This document shows positions 9,121 through 40,167 of a DNA stretch of 64,000 nt, in pieces. The stretch's first letter is position 1. Every line of letters begins with the position of its first letter. The notes under the pieces were generated by a model, which did no database searches, was not told the DNA's origin, and saw only the letters and a program-made list of their open reading frames with translations. The position numbers and the translations under genes were made by a program. This stretch comes from Bacteroides sp. (GTDB lineage Bacteria > Bacteroidota > Bacteroidia > Bacteroidales > Bacteroidaceae), in the NCBI GenBank assembly GCA_015060735.1, contig SUXX01000004.1, positions 51,398 through 115,397 of the forward strand. Direction: 5' to 3'.

Positions 9121-11502
9121 ATGAAAAGATATGCCTATCTATGTGGGGTATTTCTCCTTGCATGCCTAACAGCCACGACACAAGCACAAACATTTCCCGT
9201 ACAAGGAAGAATTATCGACAAGAATACCCGACAAGGTATCTCCTTTGCCAATATTTATCTGGAAGGAAATACCCAAATAGGTACGGCAACCGACTCTATC
9301 GGAAAATTCCACCTGACCAATGCCAAGCCTGGCATTCATCGCTTCGTGGTATCATGCATTGGATACAAAAGCCATCTGACACCCGAATATCTGATTTCGG
9401 CCCGTACACCCTTCATCGAAGTGGAATTGGAAGAAGACCCACAGATGCTAAACGAAGTAACCGTGACACCCTCACCCATGCGACGCACGACGGAAAGCCC
9501 CGTGAGCCTCTTCGTTATCGGGGTTCAGGACATCGAGAAGATTCCGGGTGCCAATCGAGACATCTCACGGGTGGTACGCTCCTTTCCTGGTGTATCCTTC
9601 TCACCCGTAGGCTATCGGAACGACTTGATAGTGAGAGGCGGAGGCCCTTCGGAAAACCGCTATTTCATGGACGGCATCGAGATTCCGAACATCAACCATT
9701 TCTCCACGCAAGGAGCTTCGGGAGGACCAGTGGGCATCATCAATTCGGACTTGGTGCGTGAAATCAATTTCTATACGGGTGCCTTCCCAACCAACCGTTC
9801 GGGAGCCTTGAGTTCGGTACTCGATTTCAGCCTATATAACGGCAATCCCGAGCGTCAAGACTTCAAAGCGACCCTCGGTGCAGCTGAGGCCTCGTTCAGC
9901 GGGAGCGGGCATTTCTCGCCCCGAACCACTTATCTGTTCTCCATCCGCCAATCGTACTTGCAATTCCTTTTCAAGCTCTTGGGGATGCCTTTCCTGCCGA
10001 ACTACATCGACGGGCAATTCAAAATCAAAACTCGCCTGAACGACCATCACGAACTGATGTTCCTCGGTTTGGGAGGCATCGACCGAATGAAGCTGAACAC
10101 CGACGAGAAAGGCGATGCCACGGAGTATCTGCTGAGCTATCTGCCCGTAATCCACCAGGACACTTACACCCTGGGTGCGAGCTACAAGCACTATGCCGGA
10201 GCACACACGCAGAGCGTCTTCCTGAGCCACAATTACCTGAACAACCGTATAACGAAGTATATGAATAATGACGAATCCATCGAAGAGAACCTGATGCTCC
10301 GCCTCCGTAGCTCCGAGCAGAAGACTTCCCTCCGTTTCGAGAACCGTTCGTCCATCGGGCAATGGATATGGAAGCAAGGGGCAGAAGTGAGTTATTCGCA
10401 CTACACCAACCGTACTCGCCAACGCTTCTATGCCAACAACCAGGCTACATGGTTGGATTATGACACAAAATTGGGCATCTGGAGTTGGGGAGGTTTCGTC
10501 TCGGCCGATTACACCTCGCCTGACGGACACTTCACCTCGTCCTTTGGCATCCGTACTGATGCTTCGGATTTTGTTAACATGAGGAATATTTTTAAGCAAA
10601 TTTCTCCTCGGATTTCTGTCAATTACACCTTCAATGAACATTGGTCTTTGGCTGGGAATGCGGGTATTTATTACGAATTACCCCCCTATACCGCCCTCGG
10701 ATTCAAGGATAATAAAGGGAATTTCGTGAATCGGGAACTGAAATATCAACGGGTAGCATCGGGAAGCGTGGGTGTGAACTGGCGTCCCATGAGGCAACTC
10801 ATCTTTTCCGTGGAGGGATTCTACAAGCGATACACCGATATGCCCCTCAGTCTCATCGACCACATCCCCTTAGCTTGCAAGGGAAATGACTATGGTATCT
10901 TCGGCAACGAACCTTTGGTGTCCTCGGCACAAGGACGTGCCTATGGTGTGGAATTGCTCGCCAAATGGCAAGTGCCCGACAAAATCAATGTCAGTGCCTC
11001 GCTCACTCTCTATCAAAGCGAATATCAAAATAACGAAAAGAGTACCTATCTACCTTCGGCATGGGACAATCGCTACATCCTCAATATGAGTTGTGTATGG
11101 GATATGCCCCGACAATGGAGCATCGGTGGTAAGCTAAGCGTTATCGGAGGCTCGCCATATACCCCCTATGATTGGGAGAAATCCTCACTTGTAGAGGCAT
11201 GGAATGCACAAGGAAGACCTTATTATGATTATGACTTGTACAACACCGAACGGCTCTCAAGTTATGCCCAATTAGACATCCGCATCGATAAGAATTATTA
11301 CTTCAAGAAATGGCGATTGGGGTGGTACATCAGCCTACAAAACGTAACGGGTAGCAAACTCAAACAACAGGATGCCTTCATCAGTACAGGAACAATAGAA
11401 AACCCCACCTCTCCCCTTGCCGAACGACGATACACCATGCGAACCATTCAGCAAGAAGAAGGAAGCATCATCCCAAGCATTGGGATAACGGTAGAGTTTT
11501 AG
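9121..11502 (+). CDS. TonB-dependent receptor with carboxypeptidase-regulatory-like N-terminal domain
   Basis: VQGRIIDKNTRQGISFANIYLEG; plug VRGGGPSENRYFMDGIEIPNINHF. Confidence 0.88.
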   Translation: MKRYAYLCGVFLLACLTATTQAQTFPVQGRIIDKNTRQGISFANIYLEGNTQIGTATDSIGKFHLTNAKPGIHRFVVSCIGYKSHLTPEYLISARTPFIEVELEEDPQMLNEVTVTPSPMRRTTESPVSLFVIGVQDIEKIPGANRDISRVVRSFPGVSFSPVGYRNDLIVRGGGPSENRYFMDGIEIPNINHFSTQGASGGPVGIINSDLVREINFYTGAFPTNRSGALSSVLDFSLYNGNPERQDFKATLGAAEASFSGSGHFSPRTTYLFSIRQSYLQFLFKLLGMPFLPNYIDGQFKIKTRLNDHHELMFLGLGGIDRMKLNTDEKGDATEYLLSYLPVIHQDTYTLGASYKHYAGAHTQSVFLSHNYLNNRITKYMNNDESIEENLMLRLRSSEQKTSLRFENRSSIGQWIWKQGAEVSYSHYTNRTRQRFYANNQATWLDYDTKLGIWSWGGFVSADYTSPDGHFTSSFGIRTDASDFVNMRNIFKQISPRISVNYTFNEHWSLAGNAGIYYELPPYTALGFKDNKGNFVNRELKYQRVASGSVGVNWRPMRQLIFSVEGFYKRYTDMPLSLIDHIPLACKGNDYGIFGNEPLVSSAQGRAYGVELLAKWQVPDKINVSASLTLYQSEYQNNEKSTYLPSAWDNRYILNMSCVWDMPRQWSIGGKLSVIGGSPYTPYDWEKSSLVEAWNAQGRPYYDYDLYNTERLSSYAQLDIRIDKNYYFKKWRLGWYISLQNVTGSKLKQQDAFISTGTIENPTSPLAERRYTMRTIQQEEGSIIPSIGITVEF

Positions 11503-12800
11503 ACTTTCATCAGATACGCCTTGAACGAAGCAAAATCCTTCGACATCGGGAGGCTTTGCTTAGTCCCCTTCATGAACGCTTGCAACTTGGCGGGGATTTC
11601 CACTTGCTCGCCAATAATGCCTTCTACCGTTTCAAGGAACTTGGCCGGATGGGCGGTTTCAAGGAACACCCCTACCTCACCATCTTGTAAGCCTTCTTCG
11701 AGGGCACGATAGCCACATGCTCCATGAGGGTCGAGCAAATAACCGGTTTCCTGGTAAGCCTTCTTTACGGTCTCACGGATTTGTTCATCCGTATAAGTGG
11801 CACCGGAGATTTCCTTCGCAATTGCTTTGTGGCTATTTTCGTAAAGAGCCAAAACACGGGCAAAATTACTCGGGTCGCCTACGTCCATGGCATTGGCAAT
11901 GGTGGCTTTGGAAGGACATGGGTTGTATTGAGCGGTTTGTAAATATTGATAGAAAATATCATTGGCATTGTTGGAGGCAATGAATCGCTTCACGGGCAAT
12001 CCCATTCGCTTACCAAAGAGACCTGCGGTGATGTTTCCGAAGTTTCCGCTCGGCACACATACCACCAAGTTATCGGCCTTACCCACTTTCTTCAACTGAG
12101 CATAGGCATAAAAATAATAGAATGCTTGAGGCAAGAAACGAGCCACGTTGATGGAATTGGCCGAAGTGAGCTTCATGTGAGCATTGAGTTCCGCATCCAT
12201 GAATGCATTCTTCACCAATGCCTGACAATCATCGAATGTTCCATCCACTTCGAGGGCGGTGATGTTTTGTCCAAGGGTTGTGAATTGTTTTTCTTGAATC
12301 TCGCTCACCTTACCCTTCGGATAAAGCACATAGACATGAATACCTTCCACACCAAGGAAACCATTGGCCACGGCACTACCCGTATCTCCCGAAGTAGCCA
12401 CCAATACATTCACTTGCTTCTGTCCCTCCTTGCGGATGAAATAGCCCAAGAGACGAGCCATAAAGCGTCCACCCACATCCTTGAACGCCAAGGTAGGGCC
12501 ATGGAAGAGTTCGAGGGAATAGATGTTTTCCTTCACCTTCACGGCAGGTACATCGAAGCTCAAGGTGTCATACACAATTTCTTTCAGCACATCGGCCGGC
12601 ACGTCCTCGCCAAAGAAAGCATCCGCCACTTGATAGGCGATTTCTTGGAAAGACAAGTTCTCGATGTTATCGTAGAACAACGATGGAAGTGGCTTGATGA
12701 CTTCCGGCATATATAAGCCTTTATCGGATGCCAACCCCTTTACTACGGCTTCTTGCAAGGAAGCTTCGGGGGCTTGGTGGTTGGTGCTATAATATTTCAT
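11499..12800 (-). CDS. thrC: Threonine synthase
   Basis: MKYYSTNHQAPEASLQEAVVKGLASDKGLYMPE; FHGPTLAFKDVGGRFMA PLP motif. Confidence 0.93.
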   Translation of the reverse strand: MKYYSTNHQAPEASLQEAVVKGLASDKGLYMPEVIKPLPSLFYDNIENLSFQEIAYQVADAFFGEDVPADVLKEIVYDTLSFDVPAVKVKENIYSLELFHGPTLAFKDVGGRFMARLLGYFIRKEGQKQVNVLVATSGDTGSAVANGFLGVEGIHVYVLYPKGKVSEIQEKQFTTLGQNITALEVDGTFDDCQALVKNAFMDAELNAHMKLTSANSINVARFLPQAFYYFYAYAQLKKVGKADNLVVCVPSGNFGNITAGLFGKRMGLPVKRFIASNNANDIFYQYLQTAQYNPCPSKATIANAMDVGDPSNFARVLALYENSHKAIAKEISGATYTDEQIRETVKKAYQETGYLLDPHGACGYRALEEGLQDGEVGVFLETAHPAKFLETVEGIIGEQVEIPAKLQAFMKGTKQSLPMSKDFASFKAYLMKV

Positions 12801-12818: not shown

Positions 12819-12893
12819 CACCACGGATTACACAGATTACCACAGAATAAAAATTTGATTATTTATCTGTGCAAATCTGTGTAATCTGTGGTG
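12819..12893. repeat. Palindromic CACCACRGATTACACAGATT repeat, solo copy A
   Basis: Left arm caccacggattacacagattaccacaga; right arm is near-exact reverse complement. Confidence 0.85.
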
Positions 12894-14100
12894 AATTAAT
12901 AAACTCATTCATAAACTCATTTTCTTTCATCACGCCATAAATACCTTCCTTGCAAGCTATCTCATCGAACGTCTGTACACCGTCCGGCTCGATACCCGGA
13001 TAATAAATCAGGAAAGGAACCGGCTCGGCGGTATGGGTGCGAAGCTCGCAAGGTGTAGGATGGTCAGGAAGCACGGCAATCGACACGGGTTCTTCCCAAT
13101 CCTTAACCGCTTCATAAATCGGGCCAACGACACACTTATCAAGGTTCTCTATCGTGAGTTGCTTCAACTCGAAGTTACCTTCATGTCCGGCCTCATCGCT
13201 CGCCTCGATATGGAGGTAAACCAAGTCGTCCGTCTTCAAGGCTTCGAGAGCGGCATTTACCTTGTTTTCATAATTCGTATCATAAAGCCCTGTCGCTCCT
13301 ACTACGTAGATTCTTCGAAGACCAGCATACACCCCGATGCCATTAATCAAGTCGACGGCAGAGATGACCGAACCTTTCTTAATGCTTGGATACATCGTCG
13401 AAAGAGACTCCATCTGTGGACGATAGCCCGGGCTCCAAGGCCAGATGCTATTGGCAGGGTCCTTGCCTTCAGCCATCCGTTTCAGATTCAAAGGATGATT
13501 CTTCAGAAGCTCTTGCGATTTCAGAATCAAATCATTGATTAAATCAGCGGTTTCTTGTGCCTCGGGCACTTTGGCCTTCACCATCAATGGGCGGAAAGGA
13601 TGCAAGGGTACATCATGAGGAGGAGTACAATCTATCTGCTTGTTTCCTCCCTTAATAATCAACAGATGGCGATATTGCACACCTGTATAGAATTGCACCC
13701 GTTCATTGCCCAAATGCTCTTGCAAGTATTTTACCAAGACATCGGCATCCTCGGTCGAGATATGACCAGCTGAATGATTCTTCAAGATGTCTCCTTCGAC
13801 ACAAACAATGTTGCATCGCATTGCCATATCACCGGGTTGAAGTTCCACGCCGATACTGGCTGCTTCTAATGGACCACGACCTTCATAAACCTTCGGGAGG
13901 TCATACCCCATCACGGACATATTGGCTACCTCGCTTCCCGGATGAAAGCCATCGGCCACGGTGATAAGTTTCCCCGTCCTACCCTTGCTTGCCAACATAT
14001 CCATATACGGAGTATGCGAGTGTTGCAACAGGGTCTGATTACCCAAGGAGGCGGATGGCCAATCGGCCATGCCATCTCCTAAGATGATGATATGTTTCAT
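12859..14100 (-). CDS. Cofactor-independent phosphoglycerate mutase-like protein (COG3635), probable alternative homoserine kinase
   Basis: MKHIIILGDGMADWPS...; located between thrA and thrC; no thrB in the operon. Confidence 0.8.
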   Translation of the reverse strand: MKHIIILGDGMADWPSASLGNQTLLQHSHTPYMDMLASKGRTGKLITVADGFHPGSEVANMSVMGYDLPKVYEGRGPLEAASIGVELQPGDMAMRCNIVCVEGDILKNHSAGHISTEDADVLVKYLQEHLGNERVQFYTGVQYRHLLIIKGGNKQIDCTPPHDVPLHPFRPLMVKAKVPEAQETADLINDLILKSQELLKNHPLNLKRMAEGKDPANSIWPWSPGYRPQMESLSTMYPSIKKGSVISAVDLINGIGVYAGLRRIYVVGATGLYDTNYENKVNAALEALKTDDLVYLHIEASDEAGHEGNFELKQLTIENLDKCVVGPIYEAVKDWEEPVSIAVLPDHPTPCELRTHTAEPVPFLIYYPGIEPDGVQTFDEIACKEGIYGVMKENEFMNEFINSPQITQICTDK

Positions 14101-14104
14101 AAGC

Positions 14105-16552
14105 TTAAATATTCGCCACACTAATGATGTCGGCAAAGACACCGGCCGCGGTCACACTTGCACCGGCACCATATCCCTGAATCATCATCGGATATTCATT
14201 GTAGCGTTCGGTGGTGAGGAGTACGATATTGTTGCTTCCTTCCAAGCCATAGAACGGATGGCTTCGACTTACTTCTTGCAACGATACACTTCCCTTTCCG
14301 TTTTCGAGTTTGGCCACAAACTTCCAATGTTTGTTTTCAGCTTCCAACTTCTGACGACGGGCTTCGAAATCGGCATCGAGCGAAGGAATATTCTTCCAGA
14401 AGTCTTCCAATGAACCTTCGAAGAATTCATCGGGCACAAAGAGATGTTTTTCTACATCTTCCTGTTCAAGTTTGTAACCGGCCTCACGAGCCAAAATTAC
14501 TAGCTTGCGAATCACATCCTTGCCACTCAAGTCGATACGTGGGTCGGGCTCGGAATAGCCTTGTTCCTTCGCCATACGGATGGTTTCACTGAATGGCACA
14601 TCGGCACTTATCTTATTGAAAATGAAGTTCAAAGTTCCACTTACTACGGCTTCAATCTTCAGAATCTTGTCACCACTAGCCAACAAATCGTTGATAGTCT
14701 TAATAATCGGGAGACCGGCACCTACATTGGTTTCGAACAAGAACTTCACACCACGATTACGGGCTATCTGCTTAAGTTCGCTATAGTTAGCATACGAGGA
14801 TGAAGCCGCAATCTTATTAGCTGCTACTACGGACACGTTATTATTCAACAAATCTTTATAGAGCGATGCTACATCAGCATTGGCCGTACAATCCACAAAC
14901 ACGGAGTTGAAGATATTCATGCCAATGATTTCGTCGCGGATAATCTGAGGACTGGAGGCGGTTCCTTTTTCATCGAGCAAGGCACGATAGTTGGACAAGT
15001 CCAAGCCTTCGCGATCGAACAAGGCCTGATGTCCGTTAGCAATACCTACTACATTCAACTTCAAACCACGTTCTTGCATTAATTTTTCTTGTTGACCGGC
15101 CAATTGCTTCAAAAGGCTATCGCCTACTGTACCCGTACCACAAATGAAGAGGTTGAGCACTTGGTATTCGGACAAGAAGAATGAATCATGGATGACGTTC
15201 AATGACTTACGCAACGATTTTTCTTCCACCACGAACGAAATATTGGTTTCCGATGCACCCTGGGCACATGCGATTACACTGATACCGTTCCGCCCCAGTG
15301 TGCCGAACAACTTTCCGGCAATACCTGGCGTATGCTTCATATTCTCGCCCACAATTGCAATAGTCGCCAAGTTCTTTTCGGCAGATACTGGGCTGATTTC
15401 ACCCATCTGGATTTCCTTTGCAAATTCTTCATTCAGCACTTCGCAAGCCAACTCGGCATCCTGATTACGCACACCGATGGAGGTACTGTTTTCTGAAGAT
15501 GCCTGCGACACCATGAACACACTGATGCCATTCTTTGCCAATGCCTTGAAGATGCGATAGTTCACCCCGATGACACCCACCATACCAAGACCGGTCACGG
15601 TAATCAAGCTTGTATCGTTAATGGACGAGATACCTTTAATGGCCTTCAATTTGGAATGTTCTATTTCCTGACGGATAACGGTGCCCTTTGCATCGGGATT
15701 GAAGGTGTTCTTGATGACAATAGGGATATTGTTGTGACAAGCCGGGTAAATGGTTGGCGGATAAACCACCTTTGCACCAAAGTTACAAAGTTCCATGGCT
15801 TCGACATAACTCAACTCATTGATAGCGTACGCATTACTGATAACACGAGGGTCGGCGGTCATGAAGCCATCCACATCTGTCCAAATTTCCAACACTTCTG
15901 CTTGGAGAGCAGCCGCAATGATGGAGGCGGTATAATCCGAGCCACCTCGACCAAGGTTAGTAATTTCACCACTATGCTTATCGCTCGAAATGAAGCCCGG
16001 CACGAGAGCCACCTTCGGAAGTTGCTGGAAGGTTTCCTTAATCAACCGGTTGGTTAAATCCGAATCAAGAATATGCTTGGAATGTTTCTTCTCTGTCTTG
16101 ATGAACATACGCGAATCATACCATACGGCTCCCTCGATAAGTGTTGCCACGATGATGGACGAAAGTCGTTCGCCATAGCTTACGATGGTAGCCGATGTCT
16201 TTGGAGAAAGGTCGCGAATCAAATAGATACCTTGGAAGATGTCTTTCAATTCATTCAAAAGTTCATTCACCTGATCAAGCAGCATGCTTCGTGCTTCTCC
16301 GGCTGGGATAACGGTATATACCATTTCGATGTGACGATTCAGTATGTCACGATATTCTTTTTCATAAGCCGGATTGCCATCTGCGGCCATCTGTGAAGTG
16401 CTAATCAATTTATCTGTAATTCCACTCAAGGCCGATACCACTACAATTACCGGCTCTTCGATGGCCTCTACAATCTTCTTTACACTTAAAATGCTGTTCA
16501 CGGAGCCTACCGAGCTTCCACCGAATTTCAATACTTTCATGCGTTCGTTCAT
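14105..16552 (-). CDS. thrA: Bifunctional aspartokinase / homoserine dehydrogenase
   Basis: MKVLKFGGSSVGSVNSI; ACT domains; HSDH AANKIAASSSYANYSEL, GLPIIKTINDLLASGDKI. Confidence 0.95.
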   Translation of the reverse strand: MNERMKVLKFGGSSVGSVNSILSVKKIVEAIEEPVIVVVSALSGITDKLISTSQMAADGNPAYEKEYRDILNRHIEMVYTVIPAGEARSMLLDQVNELLNELKDIFQGIYLIRDLSPKTSATIVSYGERLSSIIVATLIEGAVWYDSRMFIKTEKKHSKHILDSDLTNRLIKETFQQLPKVALVPGFISSDKHSGEITNLGRGGSDYTASIIAAALQAEVLEIWTDVDGFMTADPRVISNAYAINELSYVEAMELCNFGAKVVYPPTIYPACHNNIPIVIKNTFNPDAKGTVIRQEIEHSKLKAIKGISSINDTSLITVTGLGMVGVIGVNYRIFKALAKNGISVFMVSQASSENSTSIGVRNQDAELACEVLNEEFAKEIQMGEISPVSAEKNLATIAIVGENMKHTPGIAGKLFGTLGRNGISVIACAQGASETNISFVVEEKSLRKSLNVIHDSFFLSEYQVLNLFICGTGTVGDSLLKQLAGQQEKLMQERGLKLNVVGIANGHQALFDREGLDLSNYRALLDEKGTASSPQIIRDEIIGMNIFNSVFVDCTANADVASLYKDLLNNNVSVVAANKIAASSSYANYSELKQIARNRGVKFLFETNVGAGLPIIKTINDLLASGDKILKIEAVVSGTLNFIFNKISADVPFSETIRMAKEQGYSEPDPRIDLSGKDVIRKLVILAREAGYKLEQEDVEKHLFVPDEFFEGSLEDFWKNIPSLDADFEARRQKLEAENKHWKFVAKLENGKGSVSLQEVSRSHPFYGLEGSNNIVLLTTERYNEYPMMIQGYGAGASVTAAGVFADIISVANI

Positions 16553-16638: not shown

Positions 16639-16726
16639 AAATCCTGAGATTCTTAAAATAAAAAAAATGATTAATTGGTGCTTACATCCATAAGCGTGTA
16701 TCACGTAGAAACACATATATACTATC

Positions 16727-16813
16727 CTAACCCCGAGGGGTCATCATCATGGTGGATGTGGTCATGGTCCACATTCGCATTCGCATGGAAAGAGTGGTAT
16801 ATGAATAGTACAT
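16727..16813 (-). CDS. Putative thr operon leader peptide, 28 aa: MYYSYTTLSMRMRMWTMTTSTMMMTPRG
   Basis: ATG at 16813 to TAG at 16727 on minus strand; 7 Thr and 8 Met codons; between a TATATTTG promoter and thrA. Confidence 0.8.
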   Translation of the reverse strand: MYYSYTTLSMRMRMWTMTTSTMMMTPRG

Positions 16814-16856
16814 TGTCATCTGTTAATAATTATCCGTCTTTTCGAATTCAACTTCG

Positions 16857-16864
16857 CAAATATA
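16857..16864 (-). promoter_or_regulatory. Candidate thr operon -7 box TATATTTG (minus strand)
   Basis: caaatata on + strand; ~44 nt upstream of leader ATG. Confidence 0.6.
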
Positions 16865-38871: not shown

Positions 38872-40167
38872 TTAATGTTCATGACTATGAGCCGGAAGGG
38901 CATTGCTAGCCGAAGCCAATTTCACATGATAAGCGCCTTTCACCACGACCTTGTCGCCCGGATGAACGCCACTCAGGATTTGCACTTCCTTACCATTGCT
39001 GGCTCCCAATTTCACTTCCTGTTTTTTGTAACTTTCCTCACAATTTTGAATGTAGATGAAGTACAAGCCTTGTTCTTCGGTGAGAGCTTCTACCGGGAGG
39101 ACAATGGCATCTTCCATCTGCTTGGAGAGCAAGAAAATTTCCACAAACGAACCCGGGATGATGTCACCCTTGTTATCGAAGCTGAAGGTTACCGGTACAT
39201 AGAACGAACCTGCACCTGATGACTTGCCATAAGACAAGAGCTTGCCATTGAGAGCTTCCAATTCATACACCTGATTGTCATACGGAGTCTTGAAATTGGC
39301 CGAGGTGATGCCATTCAGATACTTGTAATAACGTTCTGATACATCGGCACGGAGGAAGAGGCGGTTATTCTGAGTTACCGTAGCAAGAGGTTGACCTACT
39401 GATACATAGTCACCTTCATTCACCAAGAGATTCTTGATGTAACCACCCATCGGAGAGGTTACGCCTACCCCATTCTTGGTTTGGTTCTTTGCCAAGGCTT
39501 CGTAGGCGAGTTTGGCGTTTTCATACTTTTCCTTGATGGCATTGAATTCCTTTTGCGATACGATTTGGCTTTCTACCAATCGGCTTGCACGGTCGAAATC
39601 AGCCTTAGCGGCTTCGTAAGCGATGCGGGCACGTTCGGCTGGATCACCGTCCTGCAACTTGCTAGCTGAGATAGACATCAAAGATGCCCCCTTGCCTACC
39701 TGCATACCTTCGGTTACCGAGCGTTGGAATGAAACGATACCCGACACATTGGCTACTACGATGCTTTCATTGCCTTGAGCTGCTTGCACCTCTCCACTCG
39801 CCTTAATGATTTGGCGGAAAGGCTTCGGCTGGATGACTTCGGACGCTACACCTGCGGCCTTGGCCTTGTGAGGAGCGAGCATGATTTCATCGGGATTCAC
39901 TCCGTGAGCATGGCCGTGGTCGTGGTCATGACCTTCGTGTGCATCGTGATTGTGGCCTTCGGCTTCGTGGTTATGACCGGCGTGAGCATCATGATTATGG
40001 TCTTCGTGTTCATGACTATGCCCTTCGTGATTGTGGGCATGTTCTTCTGTCGCATGGTTGTGCCCTTCGTGGTCGTGATGATGGCCTTCGTGGCTATGAC
40101 CCGAATTGCTTGAGCAGGAGCCTAGGAGAAACATCCCCATGACTCCCATAAAGAAAATTTTCTTCAT
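38872..40167 (-). CDS. CusB-like periplasmic adaptor (RND MFP) with long His-rich N-terminal tract
   Basis: Lipobox LLGSCSSNSG; HHDHEGHNHATEEHAHNHEGHSHEHEDHNHDAHAGHNH...; HlyD core. Confidence 0.93.
   Translation of the reverse strand: MKKIFFMGVMGMFLLGSCSSNSGHSHEGHHHDHEGHNHATEEHAHNHEGHSHEHEDHNHDAHAGHNHEAEGHNHDAHEGHDHDHGHAHGVNPDEIMLAPHKAKAAGVASEVIQPKPFRQIIKASGEVQAAQGNESIVVANVSGIVSFQRSVTEGMQVGKGASLMSISASKLQDGDPAERARIAYEAAKADFDRASRLVESQIVSQKEFNAIKEKYENAKLAYEALAKNQTKNGVGVTSPMGGYIKNLLVNEGDYVSVGQPLATVTQNNRLFLRADVSERYYKYLNGITSANFKTPYDNQVYELEALNGKLLSYGKSSGAGSFYVPVTFSFDNKGDIIPGSFVEIFLLSKQMEDAIVLPVEALTEEQGLYFIYIQNCEESYKKQEVKLGASNGKEVQILSGVHPGDKVVVKGAYHVKLASASNALPAHSHEH

Follow-up and report, generated by a model that had tools for sequence, protein, structure and literature searches.

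The threonine/homoserine operon in the 64,000-nucleotide stretch of DNA analysed here (the window) is preceded by a conserved element that is probably a ribosome-read leader-peptide attenuator. On comparison of related loci, a putative, hitherto unannotated leader peptide, a match between its codons and the genes of the operon, three predicted hairpins (P0, P1 and P2) and a predicted long-range helix, PA, are all conserved. The features and their coordinates are collected in Table 1. The nearest named loci to that of the window are those of P. massiliensis, P. vulgatus and P. faecalis, and the host genus is probably Phocaeicola.

Table 1 Features of the leader region and of the operon in the window
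Feature	Position	Strand	Basis
TATATTTG, candidate Bacteroidetes-type -7 box (TAnnTTTG) of the leader transcript	16857..16864	-	sequence; conserved in aligned upstream regions
Leader ORF, 30 aa, MTMYYSYTTLSMRMRMWTMTTSTMMMTPRG	16727..16819	-	stop TAG 16729-16727; start conserved in relatives
PA 5' strand ACAATGTACTATTC, leader codons 2-6	16803..16816	-	duplex prediction and partner-swap test
P0 hairpin ACCC-CTCG-GGGT, over the last codons (TPRG)	16730..16741	-	hairpin at leader end in 90/90 loci
PA 3' strand GGATAGTATATATGT, begins in the stop codon and enters the P1 base	16713..16727	-	duplex prediction, partner-swap test and folding model
P1 hairpin GTGTTTC-TACGT-GATACAC, loop nearly invariant	16696..16714	-	covariation counts; pattern once per genome, at thrA
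P2 hairpin GCTTAT-GGAT-GTAAGC	16680..16695	-	4/6 pairs with changes on both sides; absent in some genera
U-rich tail TTTTTTTTATTTT	16655..16667	-	sequence; about 12 nt beyond P2
thrA, bifunctional aspartate kinase/homoserine dehydrogenase I	14105..16552	-	NF006959, 1045 bits (cut-off 726)
Proposed homoserine kinase, phosphoglycerate-mutase superfamily (ApgM-like), second gene of the operon	12859..14103	-	TIGR02535, 564 bits (cut-off 446)
thrC, threonine synthase	11499..12800	-	TIGR00260, 316 bits (cut-off 167)

Results and discussion

A preliminary description of this DNA had reported a 28-aa ORF at 16813-16727. This ORF is present as described, but the start kept in relatives (M-T-x-Y-Y) is the ATG at 16819, six bases upstream and in frame, so that the 30-aa leader contains 8 Thr and, counting the initiator, 9 Met. 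Its Thr+Met fraction after the initiator, 0.55, ranked first among the window's 530 ORFs of 15-60 aa that begin with ATG (the runner-up had 0.43), and in 20 block shuffles the highest value among ORFs of at least 25 aa was 0.35. Only the short length of the leader would favour a chance low-complexity ORF in an AT-rich spacer; its rank in the window and above every shuffle speaks against this, and its retention in dozens of species already refutes chance, so that the probability of this explanation is negligible. The putative leader is thus the short, presumably translated ORF rich in end-product codons that is expected of an attenuator. The box noted earlier upstream of it was found and is conserved in relatives; going by the known TAnnTTTG consensus, it would act as a promoter element. 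Another Thr/Met-rich short ORF, of 52 aa (MRQKNMPTITKGIVMNTKTIIMMLTPVITTKPKATITMHTKVMTTTTAMLTE), lies elsewhere in the window, at 40055 on the minus strand.

In aligned upstream regions of thrA from the genus, most congeners have the leader, with TPRG or something close to it at the end of the peptide, and a block following the stop codon, GTGTTTCTACGTGATACACGCTTACGGATGTAAGC, is nearly invariant. An exact 20-nt pattern taken from this block was found in 47/61 congeners (reversed control, 0), once per genome except for a single genome that has two thrA contigs and two copies. A covariance model (R1) matched 70/301 genomes of the family, in 11/30 genera, with one match per genome and always before threonine-pathway genes. 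The possibility that the P1 element is a general Bacteroidetes motif found at other operons was rejected, as it is single-copy and confined to thr genes. When the order outside the family was searched with R1, the only match with thrA behind it was a weak one (L119, family f56, E 0.086). Membership of an existing Rfam family was likewise rejected: Rfam, including Thr_leader, gave no match to the window region at E values up to 1 and only sub-threshold chance matches to 18 related loci. A literature search found no description of a Bacteroides thr leader, although Vitreschak et al. 2004 may mention Bacteroidetes thr leaders.

Absence of the Thr/Met runs from related genomes had been named in advance as evidence against the attenuator proposal. 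The runs are kept in relatives, but they are thinner across a large part of the genus (e.g. MTAHYNNITISGMGRMIVTSCGTGMTPRG). Some leaders have few control codons, for example MTVHCLHIILLDGHGYMPFITSTTGMTPRG, and this counts against a codon-sensing attenuator.

The codon content of the leaders follows the content of the operons behind them. Leaders before thrA (n = 71) contained Met in 70 cases, with means of 5.4 Thr and 3.4 Met; those of kinase-thrC operons (n = 15) had internal Met in 0/15 and a mean of 8.0 Thr; and those before thrA standing alone (n = 4) had means of 4.25 Met and 0.5 Thr. The contiguous arrangement thrA-kinase-thrC was confirmed in the window and in all eleven other genomes inspected, a subset of the thrA-first genomes. 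Three genera, g13, g20 and g26, have thrA at another place and the element in front of homoserine kinase-thrC; the leaders there are Thr-rich, some with Ile, and lack internal Met (MNNCTLHTIITITGTTTTLRG, MDYISTYNTLTRLLSTTVTTVTTTTLRG). A Phocaeicola clade likewise has thrA apart from homoserine kinase-thrC, as seen in P. abscessus (G001) and G022; in the incomplete genomes of G043 and G054, from the same clade, homoserine kinase-thrC was not found. The thrA leaders of this clade are Met-rich and Thr-poor (MLPSYQHPMNMSERMRIGGMNMPWRA, MTAFYLHQMYVSMRMCSWSMDMPFRAE), and the kinase-thrC halves in P. abscessus and G022 also carry the element, with Thr-rich, Met-free leaders (MRTYNCLTFVTSFTVTTLRG, MNKVYFITTLFTTSTSFFTLTLRG), of which MRTYNCLTFVTSFTVTTLRG continues past the usual stop.

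Comparison of Met presence between operon classes gave a Fisher p of 7e-16, a value not corrected for relatedness. Mapping the operon labels onto the ThrA tree takes three changes (shuffled mean 14.7): the Phocaeicola split is a single clade (100/100), and the remaining splits fall into at least two. Effectively, then, about three independent split events stand behind the comparison. Dual sensing of Thr and Met, proposed earlier on the grounds that thrA feeds both, is supported, as the leader codons track operon content in three independent splits. The control codons correspond to the products of the regulated genes, as is expected of an attenuator, and the pattern points to a ribosome-read switch sensing the amino acids that the operon makes.

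Two oddities were seen among the split loci. Before homoserine kinase-thrC of P. abscessus (L160) the usual stop after LRG is missing, and the frame reads through P1 to a later TAA, a point against the attenuator reading. Before the stand-alone thrA of g13 (L172 and L173) the candidate leader is of another kind (MFYRDSKYEVSADYFARRIGFMP and MKRFCEVFSHYARREGFMPEGAFHC, respectively), with ARRxGFMP common to both and a GC-rich hairpin at the Met-Pro codons.

The stop-codon hairpin, the GCTTAT-GGAT-GTAAGC hairpin and the U-rich stretch of the preliminary description all exist (P0, P2 and the U-rich tail in Table 1). P1, which that description did not include, is the most conserved part of the element: it has 7 bp, one mismatch being common, and its loop UACGU, within a nearly invariant CUACGUG, is kept in nearly all genera while the stems covary. 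P0 occurs as 26 stem/loop variants among the 90/90 loci, and in L155 the stop codon has moved into its loop. The structure as a whole was equalled in 0/500 shuffles for percentage paired and in 0/500 for covariation, and lay above all slid controls.

The claim that a hairpin and the U-tract form a canonical terminator did not hold. A scan of the window for an intrinsic terminator found none, and terminator-like sites were present in 27/90 loci against 49/180 shuffled sequences, which is no enrichment; the intrinsic terminator of thrL-type attenuators is thus lacking in the window and not above the level of shuffles in the 90 loci. P2 was rejected as a canonical terminator on this ground and on that of distance, as the U-tract of P2-bearing loci is too far from the stem; T is on average enriched 15-24 nt after P2. 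Only in genera without P2 does the U-tract lie directly 3' of P1. The near-invariant P1 loop also exceeds the needs of a plain terminator, which is a further point against the attenuator as proposed.

These results could be accommodated if the leader senses codons but termination is not intrinsic, P1 and the U-rich tail forming a Rho- or factor-dependent (e.g. NusG-type) pause or termination site that is switched off by PA or the ribosome. Such a site would be consistent with the scans, with a U-tract that does not adjoin P2 and with a P1 loop that is near-constant across genera while its stems covary. On the other hand, the U-tract does directly follow P1 in P2-less loci; in two loci from other Bacteroidales families (L270 and L274) it comes after a stem built on a P0-like hairpin, so that intrinsic termination is plausible at least there; and the candidate factor remains hypothetical. 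Factor-dependent termination is therefore regarded as possible but doubtful.

The conservation of P1 is also stronger than a codon sensor needs, and might suggest direct recognition of a protein regulator or a small molecule by P1 and P2, with little role for the leader codons. There is an analogue in the LEU element of Actinobacteria, which belongs to a leucine operon, has a pseudoknot and combines a leader peptide with a conserved RNA and no clear classical terminator; mutations of its leucine codons were reported to be without effect (PMC1262725). The codons are reportedly inert in that system, whereas those of the Bacteroidaceae thr leader evidently matter in evolution: they track operon content in three independent splits with P1 unchanged, which a ligand sensor does not predict. 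The element also seems too small for a typical aptamer. Although P1 conservation would be compatible with a metabolite riboswitch, the codon partition argues against a ligand as the main sensor, and direct binding is considered improbable.

Alternative folding had been proposed earlier through pairing of ACATCCA in the leader with TGGATGT. The complementarity is present in the window but is not conserved, relatives having CGGACGT or GCGGATG, and it was rejected as the switch pairing. A different, covarying long-range pairing, PA, is conserved. PA was first noticed by inspection, as UUGUACG/CGUACAA in L135 and CAUUGUAC/GUACAAUG in L138. In a partner-swap test on 38 non-redundant loci, the mean pairing energy was -10.9 kcal/mol for a locus's own strands and -7.7 kcal/mol (sd 0.37) when partners were permuted (z -8.7, p 5e-5), PA being weak in several loci (L052, L057, L134 and L151). 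In part of the Bacteroides group a segment of the 5' UTR, UAGAAACA, extends PA and is complementary to the 5' arm and loop of P1, UGUUUCUA; PA extended in this way would compete directly with P1.

In a folding model with a masked ribosome footprint, the probability of PA was 0.85 for free RNA, 0.16 with the ribosome at the stop codon and 0.74 with it stalled on Thr/Met codons. Gating of PA by ribosome position is thus predicted by this model. Only in roughly one locus in three, however, were PA and P1 clearly exclusive in it, both being able to form in the others, and this counts against the attenuator reading.

A mechanism can be proposed in which a ribosome would be at work on the 30 leader codons before RNA polymerase has left this region. 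With ample charged Thr- and Met-tRNA, it would reach the stop codon, cover the segment after it and block PA; P1 (and P2) would then form and transcription would end early. When Thr or Met is short, the ribosome would stall on Thr/Met codons between the two PA strands, leaving both free; PA would form, its 3' strand running into the base of P1, and transcription would continue into thrA, homoserine kinase and thrC. P1, P2 and the U-rich tail would accordingly be a stop signal relieved by PA, and starvation for Thr or Met should raise expression. The direction of gating fits derepression by starvation, provided that PA opposes termination.

Leader folding might instead govern the translation or stability of thrA and not its transcription, since PA and the hairpins could influence decay. 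The spacer between P1 and thrA, however, is very variable in length and shows no visible conservation. This makes it unlikely that the start of thrA is directly masked, and there seems little chance that control is translational. Attenuation remains the preferred reading. A more specific version can be offered only tentatively: a Bacteroidaceae-specific switch in which a ribosome-gated helix, PA, is set against a small hairpin with the near-invariant CUACGUG loop that, rather than being an intrinsic terminator, recruits a termination or antitermination factor, the Thr and Met codons having been divided at the operon split.

Thr/Met leaders with a P0-like hairpin also occur upstream of thrA in several other Bacteroidales families (e.g. 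MTLTGFTYHTWALTMTPWGV and MTCFTMTTP, with a P0-like CCCCUUAGGGG hairpin). As these P0-bearing leaders extend beyond the family, where R1 gave no more than the weak match in f56, the leader is older than P1 and P2. P0 may be an ancestral terminator stem that was later replaced by the PA/P1/P2 arrangement. In six loci from these other families (L266, L270, L272, L274, L281 and L286) thrA follows a short leader, rich in Thr or in Thr and Met, whose peptide ends in TP and often in TPWG; a CCCC..GGGG hairpin accompanies it, in some cases with the stop codon within its loop.

Attenuation of the enterobacterial thr operon uses a Thr/Ile-rich leader and a canonical terminator. Like thrL of enterobacterial thrABC (Rfam Thr_leader), the present element has a short, end-product-rich leader before thrA and alternative pairings that would be gated by the ribosome; unlike thrL, it has Thr and Met codons, a different RNA and no canonical terminator. 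Vitreschak et al. 2004 (FEMS Microbiol Lett 234:357; cited in PMC1262725) reportedly predicted a Thr/Ile/Met attenuator of thrA in Pasteurellales, and their abstract is said to mention some attenuators in Bacteroidetes/Chlorobi, the operon being unnamed. The Pasteurellales prediction is similar in placing thrA under Met as well as Thr control; it differs in belonging to Gammaproteobacteria, and is not known to be linked to PA, P0 or P1.

In layout the element resembles Bacteroid-trp (RF01692), which is from the same clade and has tandem control codons (WW) and early leader codons that pair with a segment after the stop. Bacteroid-trp differs in its sequence, in its strong terminator (GGCCUGUCGUA..UACGACAGGCC-UUUUUU) and in lacking P0 and the CUACGUG loop. 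RF01692 had no match at thrA, only elsewhere in the same genomes; one such Bacteroid-trp leader is in the window's own genome (C63:3795-3942, 54 bits, above cut-off). A map of B. thetaiotaomicron mentions, in general terms, leader-peptide-like sORFs in long 5' UTRs (PMC7366714). The element appears to share its mode of action with leader-peptide attenuators of the thr and trp type; as the scans for a canonical terminator were negative, it is classed as a variant rather than placed in any existing family.

Conclusions

Amino-acid control is little known in the Bacteroidetes, a dominant gut phylum, Bacteroid-trp being the one comparable leader element found in this analysis. If the attenuator reading is true, it would add a second leader element, for the aspartate family, in Phocaeicola vulgatus, Bacteroides fragilis and other tractable species. 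The conserved P1 loop, in the absence of a classical terminator, raises the question of how attenuation ends transcription in Bacteroidetes, and the parting of Met from Thr codons once the operon had split is a rare evolutionary test of leader-peptide sensing.
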